Source of the DNA: Candidatus Krumholzibacteriota bacterium
GTDB lineage: Bacteria; Krumholzibacteriota; Krumholzibacteriia; JAJRXK01
Assembly (NCBI GenBank): GCA_029262065.1
Contig: JAJDAC010000058.1
Coordinates: 1-52,552, forward strand
Direction of reading: 5' to 3'
Length of the DNA: 52,552 nucleotides
Part shown: positions 7,081 through 25,130 of the stretch, piece after piece
Numbering within the stretch: the stretch's first letter is position 1
Layout of the letters: every line of letters begins with the position of its first letter
Position numbers and translations under genes: made by a program
Notes under the pieces: generated by a model
What the model was told of the DNA's origin: nothing
Seen by the model: only the letters and a program-made list of their open reading frames with translations
Database searches by the model: none

Positions 7081-10000
7081 CTACAGAGGACAGAGTTCGC
7101 CGCCGTTGCGGCTCATTCCCTCGATCACCAGGAAGTCGCCACTGATCAGGCCGGGCCCGATCGGTTGCGAACAGCTGGTGTGGATCTTGGTGTTCAACAC
7201 GCCGTCCACGAAGATCTTGATCTCCGTACCCAGAGTGTTCTTCTTGTCCTCGCCCACGAAGCTGAACTGCTCGCCGGGCGCGACGACGGCGTCGAAAACC
7301 ACCACGTCGTCCTTCTTCTGCTCTACGCGAATCTGCGCCGACGAGCTACCCAGGTACTCGAGCGTGAGCTCGGTTACCTTGCCATCGCATTCGCAATCCG
7401 GATCGGGATCGGGATCCGGGTCAGGGCCGGGATCATCCAGCGGGCACAGTTCGCCACCGTTGCGGCTGCTGCCGGCGATCACCAGGAAGTCACCGCTCAC
7501 CAGGCCGGGCCCGATGGGCTGCGAACAACTGGTGTGGATGCTGGTGTTCAACACGCCGTCCACGAAGATCTTGATCTCCGTACTCAGCGTTCCCCTGTCG
7601 TCTTGACCCACGAAGCTGAACTGCTCGCCCGGCGCGACGTTGGCGTCGAAAACCACCACGTCGTCCTTCTTCTGCTCAACGCGGATCTGTGCCGCCGAAT
7701 CACCCAGATACTCCAGGGTGAGTTCAGTGACCTTTCCATCGCATTCGCAGTCCGGATCCGGGTCAGGACCAGGATTGTCCACCGGACACAGCAAGCCACC
7801 GTTGCGGCTCTGGCCGGTGATGACCTCAAAGTCACCACTCACCAGGCCCGGCCCGATGGGCTGCGAGCAACTGGTGTGGATCTTGGTGTTCAACACGCCG
7901 TCCACGTAGATCCTGATCTCCGTGCTCAGGGTATTGTGCTTGTCTTCACCGACGAAGCTGAACTGCTCGCCCGGTCCGACCATTCCGTCGAACACGACCT
8001 TGTCGTCCTTCTTCTGCTCCACGCGGATCTGTGCGGTCGAGTCGCCCAGGTATTCCAGCGTCAGCTCGGTGACCTTGCCGTCGCATTCCTCACACTCTTC
8101 AGGAGTGTAGAAACAGAAATCGGCATCGAGGTACTCGCCACCGGGATCCAAAGCGGGAACGTCTACCTGCGTGGGGCAGAAGTCGCCGGGAACCTTGTCG
8201 GCTACCGTCGTCTCGTCCACCGTCACGCGACAGGCTTCACCCGACGGAACGCCAGTGAAGAGGTACCCGCCATTGGCATCGGTAAGCTGCATGTCACTGA
8301 AGTCGTCGGCCGTACCGAATACACCGTCGATACCGGCGCAGACGATCGTGACCTTGGCTCCTTCGATACCAGGCTCGCCAGCGTCCTGGACGCCGTCGTT
8401 GTTTTCGTCACACCACACGAAGTCGCCAACGGACCCGGGCGGTGCGTAGAAACAGAAATCGGCATCGAGATAGCTTTCACCCGGCGCCAGCGTCGGCACG
8501 TCGATGCTCACCGGGCAGTTGTCCCCGGGAACCTTGCCATCGACCGCGGTCTCGGACACCGAGACCGAACACGGCTGGAAACCGGCCGGAAGATCGGTGA
8601 ACAGGTAACCACCGTCGGCATCAGTGCTCTGCGTGAGCACCTCGTCGTCGGCCGTGCCCAGCACGCCATCGGCGCCGGCGCAGGTCAGGGTGACTTCGAC
8701 GCCCGCAATGCCGGGCTCGGTGTCGTCCTGCACACCGTCGTTGTTCTCGTCACACCATACGTAATCACCGATGGATGTGGGCTGCTCGACGAAGCAGAAG
8801 TCTGCGTCGAGGAACTCGGCTCCCGGATCCAATGCGGGTACGTCCACGGTGATGGGGCAATTGTCGCCCGGCACCTTGCCATCAACCGCCGTCTCCGACA
8901 CCGAAACCTGACAGGCTTCGTTGCTGGGAACACCGGTGAACAGGTAGTTGCCGTCGGCATCGGTCGTGGTGGCATCGGTGAAGACATCGGCCGTGCCGAA
9001 ATCACCATCGGCGCCGGCGCAGGTCAGGGTGACTTCGACGCCCGCGATGCCGGGTTCGGTATCGTCCTGTACACCGTCGTTGTTCTCGTCGCACCACACG
9101 TAGTCACCAATGGAGACAGGCGGCGCGAAGAAACAGAAATCGGCGTCCAGGTAGCTTTCGCCGCCCACGAGTTCCGGCACGTCGATCGACGTGGGGCAGT
9201 TGTTGCCCGGAACCTTGCCGTCGACCGCGGTCTCCGACACCGACACGACACAGGGCTGTGCGTCGACGGGAACGTCGCTGAACAGGTAGCCACCGTTGGC
9301 GTCGGTCGTGGTCGTCCGCGTCAGATCGTCGGCGGTGCCCAGCGCGCCGTCGTCGCCAGCGCAATTCAGGGTGACTTCGACGCCGGCGATGCCGGGCTCG
9401 TTGCCATCCTGGACGCCGTCGTCGTTCTGGTCGCACCAAACGTAGTCACCGATCGTGATCACGCCCGGCTCATCGGGAGTGAATACGATGTTGTCGATGG
9501 CGCCAGACCCGTTCAGGACCACGTCCATGAAAGCGACGCCCGGTCCGGAATCGAGAGCGACCACGGCCACGCCATTGTCGCCAACGATCGGCAGGCTCAC
9601 GGAGCCCAGTGAAACCATGGCGGCGTCGAAGAACTCGACGATGGCCTCGGGTTCATCGGATTCCACATCGATCAACGTGATCGATGAGACCGAAACGGTA
9701 CCCACGCCAACCCCGGTGAAGCCGAAGTTGATCATTGAACCAACCGCGTCGACGTCGTCGGGATCATCGACCAGGTCGTCACCGTTGTTGTTCACGAGGT
9801 CTTCGGCCACGATCAGCAGGTTGCCGAGCGCCGTATTGTTGACGAATGGGCCGCCAACTCCGGCCGAACCCACACCGGGTCCTCCGAAGTTCTGGTTGGG
9901 CGTACCCAGATCGGGATCCTGGCCCGTGGGGTTGGCGGAATCGAAGATAACCGCGGCGTTCGTACCCGCGGCAAAGTTGGGATTGGTGGCCATGACGTCC

Positions 10001-10233
10001 ACGACGCTTCCGCCACTGGCGGTCACGTTCGAGACGATCGTGCCGGCGGGGAGTCCCTCGAAGTCGATGGTTTCCTCGACGGCCTTGGGCAACGAGGTGT
10101 TGTCAAAGGACTGTGGTTTCGCGTCGAGCGTGGCTTCTGGCAGAACGTCTACGGGATTCTCAGAATCGCCACAGCCGCCCACCGCAAACGCGATCGAACA
10201 ACAGAACAATGAGAGCGCAAGCAGCTTCCTCAT
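7081..10233 (-). CDS. Large secreted protein with four SdrD B-like domains and three C-terminal Cys-containing repeats
   Basis: The product is 1050 residues. The signal sequence MRKLLALSLFCCSIAFAVGG ends next to a cysteine (GGC), so a lipoprotein is possible. Residues about 50-255 form a beta-rich N-terminal domain. Four SdrD B-like repeats of about 113 residues follow, each opening with IGDYVWCDENNDGVQD and ending DADFCF. The calcium-binding-like DxNxDG motif is kept in each, and each has several Cys. Three repeats of about 105 residues then begin CDGKVTELTLEYLG and contain HTSCSQPIGPGL, joined by PDPDPDPDC linkers. The last type resembles DUF7467. The protein is probably a surface or matrix adhesin. 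A ribosome-binding sequence AGGAG is present but lies 11 bases away. The gene is monocistronic and ends in a strong terminator. Confidence 0.88.
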   Translation of the reverse strand: MRKLLALSLFCCSIAFAVGGCGDSENPVDVLPEATLDAKPQSFDNTSLPKAVEETIDFEGLPAGTIVSNVTASGGSVVDVMATNPNFAAGTNAAVIFDSANPTGQDPDLGTPNQNFGGPGVGSAGVGGPFVNNTALGNLLIVAEDLVNNNGDDLVDDPDDVDAVGSMINFGFTGVGVGTVSVSSITLIDVESDEPEAIVEFFDAAMVSLGSVSLPIVGDNGVAVVALDSGPGVAFMDVVLNGSGAIDNIVFTPDEPGVITIGDYVWCDQNDDGVQDGNEPGIAGVEVTLNCAGDDGALGTADDLTRTTTTDANGGYLFSDVPVDAQPCVVSVSETAVDGKVPGNNCPTSIDVPELVGGESYLDADFCFFAPPVSIGDYVWCDENNDGVQDDTEPGIAGVEVTLTCAGADGDFGTADVFTDATTTDADGNYLFTGVPSNEACQVSVSETAVDGKVPGDNCPITVDVPALDPGAEFLDADFCFVEQPTSIGDYVWCDENNDGVQDDTEPGIAGVEVTLTCAGADGVLGTADDEVLTQSTDADGGYLFTDLPAGFQPCSVSVSETAVDGKVPGDNCPVSIDVPTLAPGESYLDADFCFYAPPGSVGDFVWCDENNDGVQDAGEPGIEGAKVTIVCAGIDGVFGTADDFSDMQLTDANGGYLFTGVPSGEACRVTVDETTVADKVPGDFCPTQVDVPALDPGGEYLDADFCFYTPEECEECDGKVTELTLEYLGDSTAQIRVEQKKDDKVVFDGMVGPGEQFSFVGEDKHNTLSTEIRIYVDGVLNTKIHTSCSQPIGPGLVSGDFEVITGQSRNGGLLCPVDNPGPDPDPDCECDGKVTELTLEYLGDSAAQIRVEQKKDDVVVFDANVAPGEQFSFVGQDDRGTLSTEIKIFVDGVLNTSIHTSCSQPIGPGLVSGDFLVIAGSSRNGGELCPLDDPGPDPDPDPDPDCECDGKVTELTLEYLGSSSAQIRVEQKKDDVVVFDAVVAPGEQFSFVGEDKKNTLGTEIKIFVDGVLNTKIHTSCSQPIGPGLISGDFLVIEGMSRNGGELCPL
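7084..8103 (-). repeat. Three tandem coding repeats of about 350 bp (CDGKVTELTLEYLG type)
   Basis: This is the C-terminal repeat block of the surface protein. The repeats start near 8100, 7752 and 7396, with a period of about 350-356 bp. Long DNA stretches are nearly identical between copies, for example those encoding VEQKKDD and SCSQPIGPGL. Such blocks are prone to copy-number change by recombination. Confidence 0.85.
8104..9465 (-). repeat. Four tandem coding repeats of about 340 bp (SdrD B-like)
   Basis: The recurring segment (DADFCF codons near 9128, 8791, 8446 and 8107) gives a period of 338-345 bp. The four copies are very similar at DNA level, so domain number may vary between strains and short-read assembly may have collapsed copies. 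Confidence 0.85.
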
Positions 10234-17196: not shown

Positions 17197-17982
17197 TCAG
17201 GCCCCGAAGATTACCTGGAAGATCACGGCCCCCAGCAGGAAGTTGGAGACCAGAATGAGCAACGAAGCGGTCACTACGGCGCGCATCGCCGCCTCACCCA
17301 CGCCCGCCGCGCCGCCGCGGGCATGGAAACCGTTGACGCAACCGCTCACGGCGATAAGAGCTCCGAACACGAAAGCCTTGATGAGCCCGCCGTACACGTC
17401 ATGCGAATCGAACAGGAATCGCAGACCATCGGTGAAGGTCTTCGAAGGCACATCGAGGCCGAGGGTGGCCACCGCGTAGCCGCCGAGAATGGCGATACTG
17501 TCTGAGAAAATGGTCAGCATGGGCAACATCATGCAGGCGGCCAGGAACCGCGGCATGGCCAGATAACGCACCGGATCGATGGCCATCATTTCCAGCGCGT
17601 CGATCTGCTCGGTCACCTTCATGGTGCCCAACTCGGCCGCAATGCTCGAGCCCACGCGGGCACCCACCACCAGGGCGGTCAAAACCGGTCCCAGTTCGAT
17701 GACCACGCTTTTGGCCACTACCGTGCCCAGGAAGCGAATGGGGACGTAATCCTGGAATTGATACTTGGCCTGGACGGTGGCCACCGCACCCGTGAATACC
17801 GACGTAATGATCACCAACGGAATCGACCCATTGCCGATGACGAACATCTGGTGGAGGATCAATCGCAGGCTCTTGGGAATTGCGGGCAGGGTTCGGAGTA
17901 TATTCAGGAAGAGCAACCCGCCCCGACCCGTATCCGTGACGGTACCCAAGACCGCCGAACCCATGCGTGCTACCACGTACAT
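17197..17982 (-). CDS. mlaE: ABC transporter permease (MlaE family)
   Basis: This 261-residue permease has about five to six membrane segments. It contains the family signature ELGPVLTALVVGARVGSS followed by ELGTMKVTEQIDALEM. The start is the ATG at 17980-17982. An ATG 18 bases downstream is an alternative, and neither has a strong ribosome-binding site. It is the first gene of the eight-gene operon and starts 42 bases from a divergent gene, so promoters must lie inside or across the neighbouring gene's 5' end. Confidence 0.9.
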   Translation of the reverse strand: MYVVARMGSAVLGTVTDTGRGGLLFLNILRTLPAIPKSLRLILHQMFVIGNGSIPLVIITSVFTGAVATVQAKYQFQDYVPIRFLGTVVAKSVVIELGPVLTALVVGARVGSSIAAELGTMKVTEQIDALEMMAIDPVRYLAMPRFLAACMMLPMLTIFSDSIAILGGYAVATLGLDVPSKTFTDGLRFLFDSHDVYGGLIKAFVFGALIAVSGCVNGFHARGGAAGVGEAAMRAVVTASLLILVSNFLLGAVIFQVIFGA

Positions 17983-18024
17983 GGCCGGCAGTATGGGGCC
18001 TGCGCGCGAAGGGAGCAACGACGG

Positions 18025-20757
18025 GTGTCCTACCGAATCACACCACTGGTCCTTTTCTTTACGTTCGCCACGGTCATGGCTGGCGCCGCGACCGCTTCTG
18101 ACTGGCCCGATCGGCTCGACCTTCCTTTCTATCGCGGCATTTCCCTGCAGCACGTGGCCGGCGGCGACGAGGACCTGGGCTACGGTAGCATCGCCTGCGG
18201 CTTGTCCCTGGACCGTGCTGCCAGCCTGGGAGCTGATGCGGTGCTCCTGGCACCCAGCGGATTGCAGGGCCGCGTGGATGCTCCCTTCATAGAGAGTCGA
18301 TTCGAAACGCGGTGGGCCGCCAACGACGCACGCCTGGCCGAAACGGCGCAGCAGGCCCACGCCCGCGGCATGCGGGTGGTGTTGGCTCCCCGGCTCGACG
18401 TGGAGAACGCATGGAGCGGTGAGATTGCGATGAACGGCGCGGTTGGCTGGGACAAGTGGTTCCGAAGCTACCGCGACTGGATCGCGCACTACGCGCGTCT
18501 GGCCGAAGAGCTCGACGTGGATCTGTTCTGCGTGGGCACCGAGCTTGGCCTCGCCAGTCAACGCGAATCACAGTGGCGCGAAGTCATCGGTGAAGTCCGG
18601 GCGCACTACACGGGACCCTTGACCTACGCCGCCAATTGGAGCGGCGAGCTGGAGAATATCCAGTTCTGGGATGCGCTGGACGTAATTGGTGTACAGGCAT
18701 TTGGACCGCTCGCGGCTTCGATCGATGCCAGCGCCGAGGTGTTGGCACAGGGAGCCGCGGCCCAGGCGACCGAGCTGGCCACCCTGAGCGAACAATGGCA
18801 CCGACCCGTAGTGGTTACGGGAGTCGGATTCCGAAGCGTGCCTTGGGCCCACGTGCGCCCGTGGCAACATCACGTCCGCGACGATGACGACAGTCCCAGC
18901 GCCCAATCGAACGCCTATCGGGCCTGGATGGGAGCCATGGGCGACAACGCCTCCTGGCTGCGTGGCGCGTTCTGGTCGGGTTGGACCAGCGCCGAACCCA
19001 CGCCGTCGGTGGCCGGCAGCTTCGACCCGCGCGGTAGACCGGCCGAGGCCCATCTTTCCAAGTGGTTCGGCGATGCGCCACCGCGGCTGACCGCCCGGCG
19101 CGTGCAGGGTTTCGGCGGCGTGGTGGTATCCGACGATACCTTGGCCACGCGAATCGGCGTCGAGGTACTGCGTCGCGGCGGCAACGCGGTGGACGCCGCC
19201 GTCGCCTGCGCGTTCGCCCTGGCCGTAACCCGACCGCACGCCGGAAACCTCGGGGGCGGCGGCTTCCTCATGGCGTACGACGACGCCCGCGCCAAGGGCT
19301 GGGCCCTGGACTTCACCGCCCAGGCGCCGGCCGCGGCGCACGCGGCCATGTTTACCCAGGCCGACGTCAACGGCCGCACTGACCCCAGCCGGGTAGGACC
19401 TCTGGCTGCGGGCATTCCCGGCACTGTGGCCGGTCTGCACGCCGCGTGGGAACGCGGTGGCCGGCTCAATTGGGGCGAATTGGTGGAACCAGCGCGCCAA
19501 TTGGCCGCGAACGGGTTTGCCGCCGGACCAGCGTTGGTATCAACCGTACACGAGTATCGGAACGACCTGGCCCGTTTCCCCTCGTCCCGCGCGATCTTCC
19601 TGGAACCAGAGTCGCCTACGATCAAGAAGGTGTTTCGCCAACCCGAACTGGCGCGTGTGTTGAAACTCATTGAAGAACGTGGACCGCGCGGTTTCTACCA
19701 GGGTGACATCGCGGAAGAACTTGTAGAGGGCGTGCGCGACTTCGGTGGCAACTGGCGCTTGGAAGATCTGCGCGGGTATCAGCCCCGTTGGGTCGAGCCG
19801 GTCGAGCTCACGTTGAGCAATGGATCCGCCCGATCCAGCGAACGCCGCGGCGGTTCGACCGCGACACGCCGCATGCTCACCATGCCACCCCCCAGCGCCG
19901 GAGGCGTGGTTACGTCGCAGGTGATCGAGCTCATGCGTTGCCAACAGGCTGACCGTTTCGAACCCCACTCGTTCGAACGCGCCCGCGCCTGGACCGAATC
20001 GCTTCGCCTCGCATTCGCCGATCGCGCATCGCACCTGGCCGATCCGTCGTCCATGTCGATCCATTGGAGGCGGCTGATCGAACCGCGCTACGTACGTCGA
20101 CGCTGCAATCTGATTCCGCCCGGACGCGCGGGGTCATCGGATCACGTGGGCCCCGGTCGCCTCGCTACTCGCCGCGGTGAATCTCCCGAAACCACCCACC
20201 TGTCGGTGATCGACGCCGCCGGCAACGCCGTGAGTCTTACCACCACTCTCAACGGAGCGTTCGGGTGTGGCTTCGTAGCGCCCTCGACGGGCGTCGTTCT
20301 GAACAACCTCATGGACGATTTCGTCACGCGACCCAACGACACCCTCGAGTCGGCCAACACCGTGCAACCAGGGGCTCGCATGCTCAGCAGTATGAGCCCG
20401 GCCATCGTGCTCGACGGTCAGCGCGTATGGTTTGCGTTGGGCGGCCGCGGCGGCAAACACATCTTGAGTGCCGTGGCCCAGACCGCCGTCCACCGGGTAT
20501 GGGACGACATGCCGCTCGATCGCGCCATCGCGGCGCCGCGCGTGCACCACCAGTGGTGGCCCGACCTGGTGGAGCTGGAAGAGATGCGAACCTGGCCGGG
20601 GTTGGACGACGAGTTCGAAAAACAGGGATACAAGGTTCGGAAAATTCTTCAAGCCGGCGTGATCCACGGCGTGGAGCTGGAACCCGACGGCAGCTTGGTG
20701 GGCGTTACCGACCCACGCGGTGGTGGACTGGCGTTGTGCGTGGACCGGCGCCGGTAG
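18025..20757 (+). CDS. Secreted fusion: GH113-like TIM barrel plus gamma-glutamyltransferase
   Basis: The product is 910 residues. A signal peptide (about residues 1-25) follows the GTG start, which has GGGAG ten bases upstream. Residues about 30-345 resemble glycoside hydrolase family 113: a barrel with CVGTELGLA, where Glu173 matches the acid/base residue, and GPLTYAANW. At the position where GH113 has the nucleophile in TEVG, this protein has Gly266 (VVTGVGFRSV). Residues about 355-910 form a complete gamma-glutamyltransferase. This part contains RRGGNAVDAAVA, GNLGGGGFLM and PPPSAGGV, and the autoprocessing Thr723 in SPETTHLSVIDAAGNA. The GGT part should self-cleave into two subunits in the periplasm and use glutathione or other gamma-glutamyl compounds. 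The barrel may be an inactive glycan binder. A fused barrel is unusual for GGTs. Confidence 0.85.
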   Translation: MSYRITPLVLFFTFATVMAGAATASDWPDRLDLPFYRGISLQHVAGGDEDLGYGSIACGLSLDRAASLGADAVLLAPSGLQGRVDAPFIESRFETRWAANDARLAETAQQAHARGMRVVLAPRLDVENAWSGEIAMNGAVGWDKWFRSYRDWIAHYARLAEELDVDLFCVGTELGLASQRESQWREVIGEVRAHYTGPLTYAANWSGELENIQFWDALDVIGVQAFGPLAASIDASAEVLAQGAAAQATELATLSEQWHRPVVVTGVGFRSVPWAHVRPWQHHVRDDDDSPSAQSNAYRAWMGAMGDNASWLRGAFWSGWTSAEPTPSVAGSFDPRGRPAEAHLSKWFGDAPPRLTARRVQGFGGVVVSDDTLATRIGVEVLRRGGNAVDAAVACAFALAVTRPHAGNLGGGGFLMAYDDARAKGWALDFTAQAPAAAHAAMFTQADVNGRTDPSRVGPLAAGIPGTVAGLHAAWERGGRLNWGELVEPARQLAANGFAAGPALVSTVHEYRNDLARFPSSRAIFLEPESPTIKKVFRQPELARVLKLIEERGPRGFYQGDIAEELVEGVRDFGGNWRLEDLRGYQPRWVEPVELTLSNGSARSSERRGGSTATRRMLTMPPPSAGGVVTSQVIELMRCQQADRFEPHSFERARAWTESLRLAFADRASHLADPSSMSIHWRRLIEPRYVRRRCNLIPPGRAGSSDHVGPGRLATRRGESPETTHLSVIDAAGNAVSLTTTLNGAFGCGFVAPSTGVVLNNLMDDFVTRPNDTLESANTVQPGARMLSSMSPAIVLDGQRVWFALGGRGGKHILSAVAQTAVHRVWDDMPLDRAIAAPRVHHQWWPDLVELEEMRTWPGLDDEFEKQGYKVRKILQAGVIHGVELEPDGSLVGVTDPRGGGLALCVDRRR

Positions 20758-23159: not shown

Positions 23160-23750
23160 ATGAAGACCTCGTGCCTGACACTTTTCATCCTTTGTGCCGT
23201 GTTGCTCACGCTAGCAGCCCCCGCCTCGGCTCAATTGAATCCCACCAACTGCTCAATCAACATGTACGCCGACGTGAACGGTCAGCTCAGCGGGCTGGTG
23301 ATCCCCACCGAACTGGTACCGTTCGACGTGGTGGTCATTCTTCGCGTGGACAATGTGGTGAACGCGGTGGCCTACAACCTCGTGGTCGAGCCCGCGGGTG
23401 AACTGGGCACCAACCTGTTCATTCTGAACCAAGCGTACGGACCCAACGGTACCGGCATCAATATCATCACGCCCGGCGGCAACAACATTGGCTTGGGCGG
23501 GTGTGCGGTGGGTTTCAACAACCAGGACATTTTGGTAACCCGCTACACCATGCTGGCCACCGCCAACTTTCCCGGCGGCAGCACCATCTACGCATCGAAC
23601 AATCCCGACGTGGATGGCCTGACTACTTTTCCGCAGTATGCAACCTGCAACGGTCAAGTCATCGCCTGCGGATTCGGCGACAAGGTCCTGGTGAACCCGC
23701 CCATCTCCACGACCAACGAGAGTTGGGGCGCGGTGAAGAGCCTTTACTAA
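23160..23750 (+). CDS. Small secreted protein, paralog of the next gene, C-terminal SWGAVKSLY
   Basis: This 196-residue protein has a signal peptide ending near PASAQ and no domain I recognise. It shares most of its length with the protein encoded downstream: CSINMYADVNG, NNIGLGGCAVGFNN and NPDVDG against CSIDIYADLDG, NNIGLGSCAIGFNN and NPDVDG. It ends TTNESWGAVKSLY. AAGGA lies about eight bases before the ATG. It is probably secreted or surface attached. Four cysteines in the mature part suggest disulfides. Confidence 0.8.
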   Translation: MKTSCLTLFILCAVLLTLAAPASAQLNPTNCSINMYADVNGQLSGLVIPTELVPFDVVVILRVDNVVNAVAYNLVVEPAGELGTNLFILNQAYGPNGTGINIITPGGNNIGLGGCAVGFNNQDILVTRYTMLATANFPGGSTIYASNNPDVDGLTTFPQYATCNGQVIACGFGDKVLVNPPISTTNESWGAVKSLY

Positions 23751-23765
23751 CTAGGGCTCGAATAG

Positions 23766-23788
23766 GCCGGCCCGGGATCCGGGCCGGC
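23766..23788 (+). terminator. Strong GC hairpin after the first paralog
   Basis: A 10-bp perfect stem (GCCGGCCCGG/CCGGGCCGGC) has a GAT loop and is followed by TTGCTACTTCTT, a weak T-run. It may be an intrinsic terminator or a processing/stability hairpin between the two paralogous genes. Confidence 0.6.
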
Positions 23789-23849
23789 TTGCTACTTCTT
23801 GGGATCTCCCTCCCCGGCGACACATCTCTTGCCCGTTCAAGGAGTCTTC

Positions 23850-24413
23850 ATGAGATTCATGGCTACGCTTGTCGCACTCGTTCTTATTGCCCTGCCCGCT
23901 CAAGCCACCATCGACCCCCCACCGCCGTGTTCGATCGACATCTACGCCGACCTCGACGGATATCTGGCGTCGTTTTGGCTACCGCGGCATCTGATATCGA
24001 CCGATCTCGTCGTGGTCATGCGAGTTGAGAACCTGGTCAACGCGGTTGCGTACGCGCTGGAGATTCCTGGCCTGGGCAGCACCATCTTCTTGAATGGTTT
24101 CTCCTACGGTCCCGACGGAACCGGAATCAACGTTCAAACCCCCGGCGGAAACAACATCGGCCTGGGGAGCTGCGCTATTGGATTCAATAACCGCGATATC
24201 CTGGTCGCCCGCTACACGGTCATTCCCACGTTCCTGTTCAATGGCATCATTCGGGTTCTGCCCAACCCCGACGTTGACGGCGATGGTACGCGACCGCAGT
24301 ACAGCACGTGCCAGGGTGTTCTCGAACCCTGCAATGCGGGTCGGGGCCTCGATGTCGCCGTGGTTCCTACCACGCAAGAAAGCTGGGGCGCGATCAAGGG
24401 GCTGTACCGGTAG
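23850..24413 (+). CDS. Small secreted protein, paralog of the previous gene, C-terminal SWGAIKGLYR
   Basis: This 187-residue protein has a signal peptide (MRFMATLVALVLIALPAQA) and ends TTQESWGAIKGLYR. AGGAG lies five to six bases before the ATG at 23850, so the longer in-frame start at 23799 is less likely. The central fold matches the preceding gene, which indicates tandem duplication with divergence. The function is unknown. The shared C-terminal block suggests a common sorting or anchoring fate. Confidence 0.8.
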   Translation: MRFMATLVALVLIALPAQATIDPPPPCSIDIYADLDGYLASFWLPRHLISTDLVVVMRVENLVNAVAYALEIPGLGSTIFLNGFSYGPDGTGINVQTPGGNNIGLGSCAIGFNNRDILVARYTVIPTFLFNGIIRVLPNPDVDGDGTRPQYSTCQGVLEPCNAGRGLDVAVVPTTQESWGAIKGLYR

Positions 24414-24422
24414 ACTGGGTTC

Positions 24423-24453
24423 GGGATGGGACCCGGGTCCCATCCCTTTTCTT
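24423..24453 (+). terminator. Intrinsic terminator
   Basis: A perfect 10-bp stem GGGATGGGAC/GTCCCATCCC has a CCGG loop and is followed by TTTTCTT. It ends the small secreted-protein transcript and sits between convergent genes. Confidence 0.85.
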
Positions 24454-24467
24454 CACCACAAACAAAC

Positions 24468-25130
24468 TCAGAACCGGGCCTTAACCGCCCCGAAACTCTC
24501 CGAAGTCACCGGAATGCTGCCGCACGTCCACGGCTGCGCAAAAGTAATGCTACGAAACACGAAGATATCCAACTCGAACTCGTAGTCTCCAAAGATGCGC
24601 AGCGGAATCCCGGTGTCGATGAGCGGGAAAATCAGGTCGAATGCAGCGGGATCGAGTTCAGCCGGACTAAACGGAAAAACGTAAGGGAAGCAGACGTTGT
24701 CGCAGGGCGTGAACTGGATGGCCCCCAATGCCGCGCTCTCAAACGTCCCCACCGCCAACGGTTCGGATAGATAGTGCGCCCAGCTGTGGCCAATGATGGT
24801 TCCGGGAAACCCGTTCAATTCGATCGAGTACACGTAGTGACCGAGGCCAGGGTTGGTGTCGGCGTATTGAAACTGGTGGCTGCCCGCCGCCAGGTTCTGA
24901 TCGGAGAAATCCTCGATGAGAATGGAAGGCTCATCGCATTGGCTGGTGGCGTCGTCGCGCCGGATGACGAAACCGGTGATGGGCTCGTCGAGCTGAAGCG
25001 TGATGCTAAGCTGCACGCGATCGCTCAAGGTTTCGGTGCCAATCGAGGCCGAGAACGGAAAGCCAGAGCGAGCTGCGCTTGGCGTTACGAGAAAAAGGGC
25101 GAAAGCAAGCAAGACTAACCGTGGGTTCAT
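24468..25130 (-). CDS. Small secreted protein with C-terminal SFGAVKARF
   Basis: This 220-residue protein has a signal peptide ending near SAARS and no recognised domain. The sequence is beta-rich (SIGTETLSDRVQLSITLQL) and has Cys in CDEPS, CDNVC and TCGS. It does not match the two neighbouring secreted proteins in the body, yet it ends VTSESFGAVKARF, the same C-terminal pattern. GAGGAG stands before the ATG at 25130, so the longer frame to 25184 is not used. A -10-like TATATT lies upstream, without a clear -35. Confidence 0.75.
   Translation of the reverse strand: MNPRLVLLAFALFLVTPSAARSGFPFSASIGTETLSDRVQLSITLQLDEPITGFVIRRDDATSQCDEPSILIEDFSDQNLAAGSHQFQYADTNPGLGHYVYSIELNGFPGTIIGHSWAHYLSEPLAVGTFESAALGAIQFTPCDNVCFPYVFPFSPAELDPAAFDLIFPLIDTGIPLRIFGDYEFELDIFVFRSITFAQPWTCGSIPVTSESFGAVKARF

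Follow-up and report, generated by a model that had tools for sequence, protein, structure and literature searches.

C-terminal sorting signals are already known as a kind. Two signal classes of the type IX secretion system (T9SS) come closest to the case described here. The type A C-terminal domain (CTD; TIGR04183, Por_Secre_tail) is a folded Ig-like domain of 72 model positions that is recognised by PorV (PMC12618676). The type B CTD (TIGR04131), which is associated with PorP/SprF, forms a distinct signal class with the shuttle gene located directly downstream, i.e. type B substrates are often encoded directly upstream of their own shuttle gene (PMC12618676). Within the extended translocon of this system, PorD binds SprE (PMC10994853). 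In the PEP-CTERM/exosortase, GlyGly-CTERM/rhombosortase and MYXO-CTERM/myxosortase systems, exported proteins that are otherwise unrelated carry a short C-terminal sorting signal present in many copies (PMC1569441, PMC3237569, PMC11980579), which combines a signature and a transmembrane helix with a basic end; LPXTG/sortase signals are defined by the LPXTG motif, a transmembrane helix and a basic tail. Cargo-loading and encapsulation peptides act in the cytoplasm as short amphipathic helices at the protein terminus, by which unrelated cargo is addressed.

Results and Discussion

The window, meaning the whole stretch of 52,552 nucleotides of DNA that was analysed, encodes three neighbouring proteins with a common C-terminal tail (protein A ends TTNESWGAVKSLY, protein B TTQESWGAIKGLYR and protein C VTSESFGAVKARF). 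According to its ORF translation, protein A (23160..23750, + strand) comprises 196 aa with a signal peptide at about residues 1-24, a cohesin-like beta-sandwich body and the tail (23697..23747, + strand; ...STTNESWGAVKSLY), which matches the tail profile with E=4.5e-5 and is also retained by homologs of protein A in relatives. Protein B (23850..24413, + strand) measures 187 aa from its likely ATG, upstream of which the ORF opens at 23799, and is likewise composed of a signal peptide, a cohesin-like body and the tail (24357..24410, + strand; VPTTQESWGAIKGLYR; profile match E=3.4e-7). Protein C is encoded on the other strand (24468..25130, - strand); its 220 aa, counted from the likely ATG, contain a signal peptide, a body type of its own and the tail (24471..24524, - strand; SIPVTSESFGAVKARF; profile match E=5.3e-4). 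It should be mentioned that protein C is itself one of the 64 rows of the profile that matched its tail.

A and B are paralogs with 52% identity. Alignment of C to either of them is confined to the last 15 residues, and a profile built from 28 A/B homologs aligned over the last 16 columns of C only. The tail is common to all three proteins and the body of C is unrelated to that of A and B, whereby common paralogy of the trio is ruled out. As the form SFGAVKARF found in protein C is a common tail variant in the source genome, we regard C as a true member. The first-pass annotation, which had proposed a common C-terminal signature in three neighbouring secreted proteins, two of them paralogs and the third with an otherwise different body, was therefore confirmed; it would have been refuted by full-length homology of the third protein or by a lack of enrichment at the C-termini of exported proteins, and neither applies, as the tail is strongly enriched there.

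Elsewhere in the window, a single open frame at 17758-20757 (+ strand) encodes an unusual fusion of a GH113-like glycoside hydrolase domain (residues 149-413) with a complete gamma-glutamyltranspeptidase (469-989). At 7081-10233 (- strand) lies a 1050-aa lipoprotein-like protein with SdrD B-like repeats, which bears neither tail nor CTD and has one domain in common with the tail protein L189:9871-10578.

The tail spans roughly 16 residues with the consensus [P][VT][E]xx[ST]-[WF]-G-x-[IV]-K-[AGS]-[LR]-[YF]-(R)-stop, the common form in the source genome being P-V-[AP]-T-E-x-x-S-[WF]-G-x-V-K-[AGS]-[RL]-[FY]. In a set of 123 non-redundant tails, the core residues W, G, [IV], K, [LF] and Y and the final R are partly fixed by the search pattern, but positions outside the pattern are conserved too: S or T precedes the W in 112 tails, P occupies position -6 in 63 of them, V position -5 in 67 and E position -4 in 66, and 99 tails have A, S or G at +5. 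No more than three residues follow the core in 121 of the 123.

A DNA pattern for WGx[IVM]Kx[LF]Y gave four matches in the source genome, all of them ends of signal-peptide proteins, and none in the reversed control. Across 80 genomes of the same phylum, 73 matched with hundreds of matches in total, compared to five for the control. When anchored to the stop codon, the pattern retrieved most of the phylum plus nine genomes outside of it, without a single control match in 289 genomes. These reversed-pattern controls and the lack of internal copies rule out a chance origin of the tail. One copy (WGRVKTLY in L008:969-1574, - strand) follows directly after a signal peptide and is thus N-terminal instead of C-terminal; this single case remains within the number of chance matches expected from the control and may be chance.

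The tail closes about 70-80 proteins in the source genome, where the 64-row profile hits 82 places at E<=10, and 41 of these also pass E<=0.01. Position was analysed in 1.12 Mb taken around the profile matches, a sampling that biases tail counts toward tail genes but leaves the position within proteins unbiased. Scoring of the called genes in this sample gave 71 C-terminal and 4 internal tails at a low threshold, and 63 and 0 at a higher one. The pattern [ST][WF]G.[VI]K matched 47 times within the last 25 residues, and not once in the first 25 residues or in 286,195 internal residues. The tail is almost strictly C-terminal. Signal peptides, called by a simple hydropathy rule rather than SignalP, were found in 60 of the 70 tail proteins as compared to 231 of 639 other proteins, and several of the ten tail proteins lacking a called signal peptide have misplaced gene starts. 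Some tail proteins (L065, L069 and L179:9001-11309) have the look of lipoproteins, with a Cys ending the signal peptide (e.g. ...LLWTGCGDDP), so that the tail is not limited to free exported proteins. Tail genes often stand in tandem, with five consecutive copies in L156:8857-13266 and three in L184:9449-11680. Their 102 neighbours revealed no enriched family and no conserved sorting gene; CTD proteins appeared among them just four times and PorV-family genes twice. Most tail genes have no T9SS gene next to them.

The bodies preceding the tail are highly diverse. Clustering of 149 tail proteins resulted in 70 body clusters, and the 70 proteins from the source genome alone fall into 47, among them beta-helix, NHL, LTD, malectin and cohesin domains. 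A set of 108 tail proteins matched 24 NCBIfam families, including choice-of-anchor J, X, F and R, the PEP-CTERM families ScyF and PepA, and one rhombosortase-dependent family, i.e. bodies that elsewhere bear other C-terminal anchors. No body homologs with other anchors were found on plasmids. Conservation is concentrated in the tail, with a mean identity of 0.67 as compared to 0.21 for the body in the cohesin-like A/B family, and of 0.96 for the core as compared to 0.26 for the body in the first eight genomes of an Fn3-like family described below.

An AlphaFold2 model of protein B, calculated from a 28-sequence alignment with a mean pLDDT of 91.4, shows a beta-sandwich that matched cohesins in a fold search against the PDB (best hit 2vo8). 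The body is followed by a linker and a short helix at residues 179-185 (WGAIKGL, pLDDT ~73-74), with Ser178 at the helix-cap position. The tail thus consists of a linker ([P][VT][E]xx) and a stretch of 9-10 residues, [ST]-W-G-x-[IV]-K-x-[LR]-[YF], which is modelled as a short helix immediately preceded by the Ser/Thr. Averaged over 120 tail cores, the helical hydrophobic moment was 0.54 as compared to 0.38 after shuffling, a modest excess.

The tail found no matching model in Pfam or NCBIfam and only chance matches among PDB sequences. In the literature searched, Eisenbacteria were not named in any paper dealing with C-terminal sorting or type IX secretion, and the string WGxIK returned none. 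We consider the tail undescribed because it is absent from these sources. TIGR04183 matched none of the 108 tail proteins at E<=0.01, a local CTD profile matched 0 of the 70 in the source genome, and TIGR04131 is absent from the 24 NCBIfam families mentioned above. The tail sequences contain no hydrophobic stretch or transmembrane helix; the K lies inside the core, beyond which 0-8 residues follow, and the criteria for LPXTG/sortase signals are not met. Of the features expected of a T9SS substrate, the two that can be read from sequence, a Sec signal peptide and an SprA-encoding genome, are present in the tail proteins.

A link to the T9SS is suggested by homologous bodies that carry different ends. 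Among nine complete homologs of tail proteins that lack the tail, seven end in a type A CTD, another has a weakened tail (SFGGVKSEFVDQ) and the last has neither tail nor CTD; four further homologs were cut by the edge of the fetched stretch and are not counted among the nine. The clearest swap is seen in the tandem trio of tail proteins in L184: over the entire body they match L145:7797-8714, a protein with a CTD at its end. In the sample from the source genome, 70 proteins carry the tail and 59 the CTD as judged by the local CTD profile, and none carries both; the median lengths are 248 and 702, respectively. Tail and type A CTD are exchangeable on homologous bodies and never occur together.

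All 78 searched genomes of the phylum were positive for the tail profile, with 3-63 copies each. A stricter pattern matched 47 stretches in a search of 84,980 species, and their record names read Candidatus Eisenbacteria, Effluviviaceae, 'Gemmatimonadota' DHS20C21, or simply 'bacterium' for metagenome-assembled genomes. Since a common root has been reported for Effluviviacota, Eisenbacteria, Latescibacterota, JABDJQ01 and JAGLYR01 (PMC11323493) and one tail locus (L098) stems from a JAGLYR01 record, the tail probably marks this group as a whole. Two Fn3-like proteins from elsewhere, L260 (G149) and L255 (G227), end TSTWGEIKASNE and SSWGEIKAEFK, and a wider WGEIK variant outside the main group is suggested by these ends. 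In SprA-negative phyla, the WGEIK pattern gave only scattered single or double matches, and as such a wider tail in those phyla is not supported.

SprA is encoded in the source genome by a gene of 2342 aa (E=6.7e-14) adjoining a glutaminyl-cyclase-like gene, and all tail-positive genomes tested contain type A CTDs, from 33 to at least 107. Outside the phylum, 59 of 208 genomes encode SprA, including all eight tail-rich ones (G144, G147, G177, G199, G213, G272, G285 and G288; 17 to 74 tail copies), and no tail match was detected in 20 SprA-negative control genomes. With the stop-anchored pattern, tails were found in 8 of the 59 SprA-positive and 1 of the 149 SprA-negative genomes (Fisher P=2e-4). 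This value is optimistic, as the genomes are related and the correlation between SprA and tail is confounded by phylogeny. About 50 SprA-positive genomes have few or no tails, which shows that a T9SS is not sufficient for tails. SprA went undetected in 12-13 tail-bearing genomes of the phylum, many of them incomplete, and in G181, which has two tail matches; nor was it seen in G149, yet one protein of this genome ends TWGEIKASNE.

Ten further SprA-positive genomes of other phyla encode a single-copy, small exported Fn3-like protein ending TWGSIKA[MLI][FL][RK], with TWGSIKAMFR being almost invariant (L231, L232, L222-L224, L226, L228, L230, L247 and L248). Its gene follows PorD at a distance of ~50 bases in G080 and of ~200 bases in G129, where PorQ is also close by; in G271 it is close to both PorQ and PorD. 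As G129 and G271 belong to one family, the linkage in three of ten genomes represents two lineages. In a third lineage (G108 and G255), the gene of a lamin-tail-domain (LTD) protein whose tail reads STWGRIKAMFSTERR immediately precedes a PorV2-like gene or overlaps slightly with it (L225 and L229). The Fn3-like protein is a candidate for a new T9SS-associated protein.

Taken together, the tail is very likely a C-terminal sorting or anchoring module, even though no experimental data on secretion, cleavage or surface display exist. The first-pass annotation had guessed at a sorting, anchoring or assembly tag; this is supported, and it gains strength from the swaps with the T9SS CTD between homologous bodies as well as from the 'choice-of-anchor' bodies. 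Its mention of similar tails in Eisenbacteria was right, as the named matches are Eisenbacteria and neighbouring lineages. Its suggested search for a co-occurring processing or sorting gene leads to the T9SS as the most plausible candidate, which remains unproven. Tail proteins would be exported by Sec via their N-terminal signal peptide, the exposed tail helix would dock with its W/F-I/V-Y/F face into an outer-membrane receptor, and the protein would then be delivered to the cell surface or displayed there. As receptor, a T9SS component would be the likeliest, by analogy a shuttle of the PorV/PorQ family, and the tail may represent a third, minimal T9SS signal class in addition to the type A and type B CTDs, which are folded. 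In the absence of secretion data, the balance tips only slightly towards the tail working through the T9SS, and the lipoprotein-like bearers, an unusual class for T9SS substrates, speak against it. That a PorV-family shuttle is the receptor rests on analogy without binding data, and we are inclined to doubt it more than to believe it. A bolder reading appears likely, namely that a linear helix of 16 residues serves as the address label of an undescribed sorting route by which each cell of Eisenbacteria and related phyla handles dozens of surface proteins, this route being either a T9SS opened to cargo without a folded CTD or a separate outer-membrane pathway.

Such a T9SS-independent pathway with its own receptor or processing enzyme, the overlap with the T9SS merely reflecting shared ancestry in FCB-like lineages, remains possible. 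The T9SS signals described to date are folded domains of ~70-100 residues and the tail is a short linear peptide; moreover, it is limited to a subset of SprA-positive lineages, and the majority of its genes do not adjoin T9SS genes. On the other hand, the swaps with type A CTDs on the same bodies speak against a separate pathway, as does the proximity of tail genes to PorD, PorQ and PorV2 genes in three lineages, and no candidate gene was found, albeit without a full gene-content comparison. Less plausible, and in our view unlikely, is a non-covalent docking or assembly tag that acts after export by binding a common scaffold, located either at the cell surface or on the inner side of the outer membrane, and would serve retention rather than export. 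A short helix with a hydrophobic face and a basic end would suit this role, as would the binding-type modules among the bodies (cohesin-like, beta-helix, NHL, LTD, malectin) and the lipoprotein-like bearers L065, L069 and L179, which are already membrane-anchored; however, no scaffold candidate was found, and replacement by type A CTDs points to an export-and-anchoring step.

The remaining alternatives carry little weight. That a sortase-like or exosortase-like enzyme processes the tail, in the manner of PEP-CTERM, GlyGly-CTERM or LPXTG proteins, could be argued because tail bodies match families with PEP-CTERM or rhombosortase-dependent ends elsewhere, but we judge it very unlikely, as the tail lacks a transmembrane helix, is not long enough to accommodate the three parts of these signals and gave no convincing match to an NCBIfam CTERM model (the exosortase gene itself was outside the search). 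The paralogy of A and B might suggest that the tail merely belongs to a conserved fold or is left over from common ancestry, and is no signal at all; this is all but excluded by its presence on 70 body clusters, by the tail-only alignment of the A/B profile with protein C and by the protein B model, in which it lies beyond the folded body.

Irrespective of the route, the tail provides a readable label of the surface proteome in uncultured phyla, in which most exported proteins are unannotated. If it is indeed a T9SS signal, the translocon accepts a short linear peptide instead of a folded domain, what translocon and shuttles recognise becomes directly testable, and a very small secretion tag may be within reach. 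The single-copy Fn3-like protein encoded beside PorD offers a concrete lead to a new T9SS-associated protein.

Conclusion

With cargo-loading and encapsulation peptides, the tail has in common that a short terminal amphipathic helix would address unrelated proteins, but tail proteins have signal peptides and those peptides act in the cytoplasm. It resembles PEP-CTERM, GlyGly-CTERM and MYXO-CTERM as a short, many-copy C-terminal signal on unrelated exported proteins, and differs from them by lacking the transmembrane helix. The tail genes directly upstream of a PorV2-like gene in L225 and L229 are reminiscent of the type B arrangement, whereas the shuttle-like neighbour belongs to the PorV/PorQ family and no type B model is matched. 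Closest is the type A CTD, which is likewise C-terminal and modular, occurs many times per genome on signal-peptide proteins in SprA-positive genomes and occupies the same slot on homologous bodies; in contrast to this folded domain, the tail is only ~16 residues long and linear or helical. New with respect to the sources searched is a short linear signal without a transmembrane helix that is carried by dozens of proteins and can be exchanged with the type A CTD.
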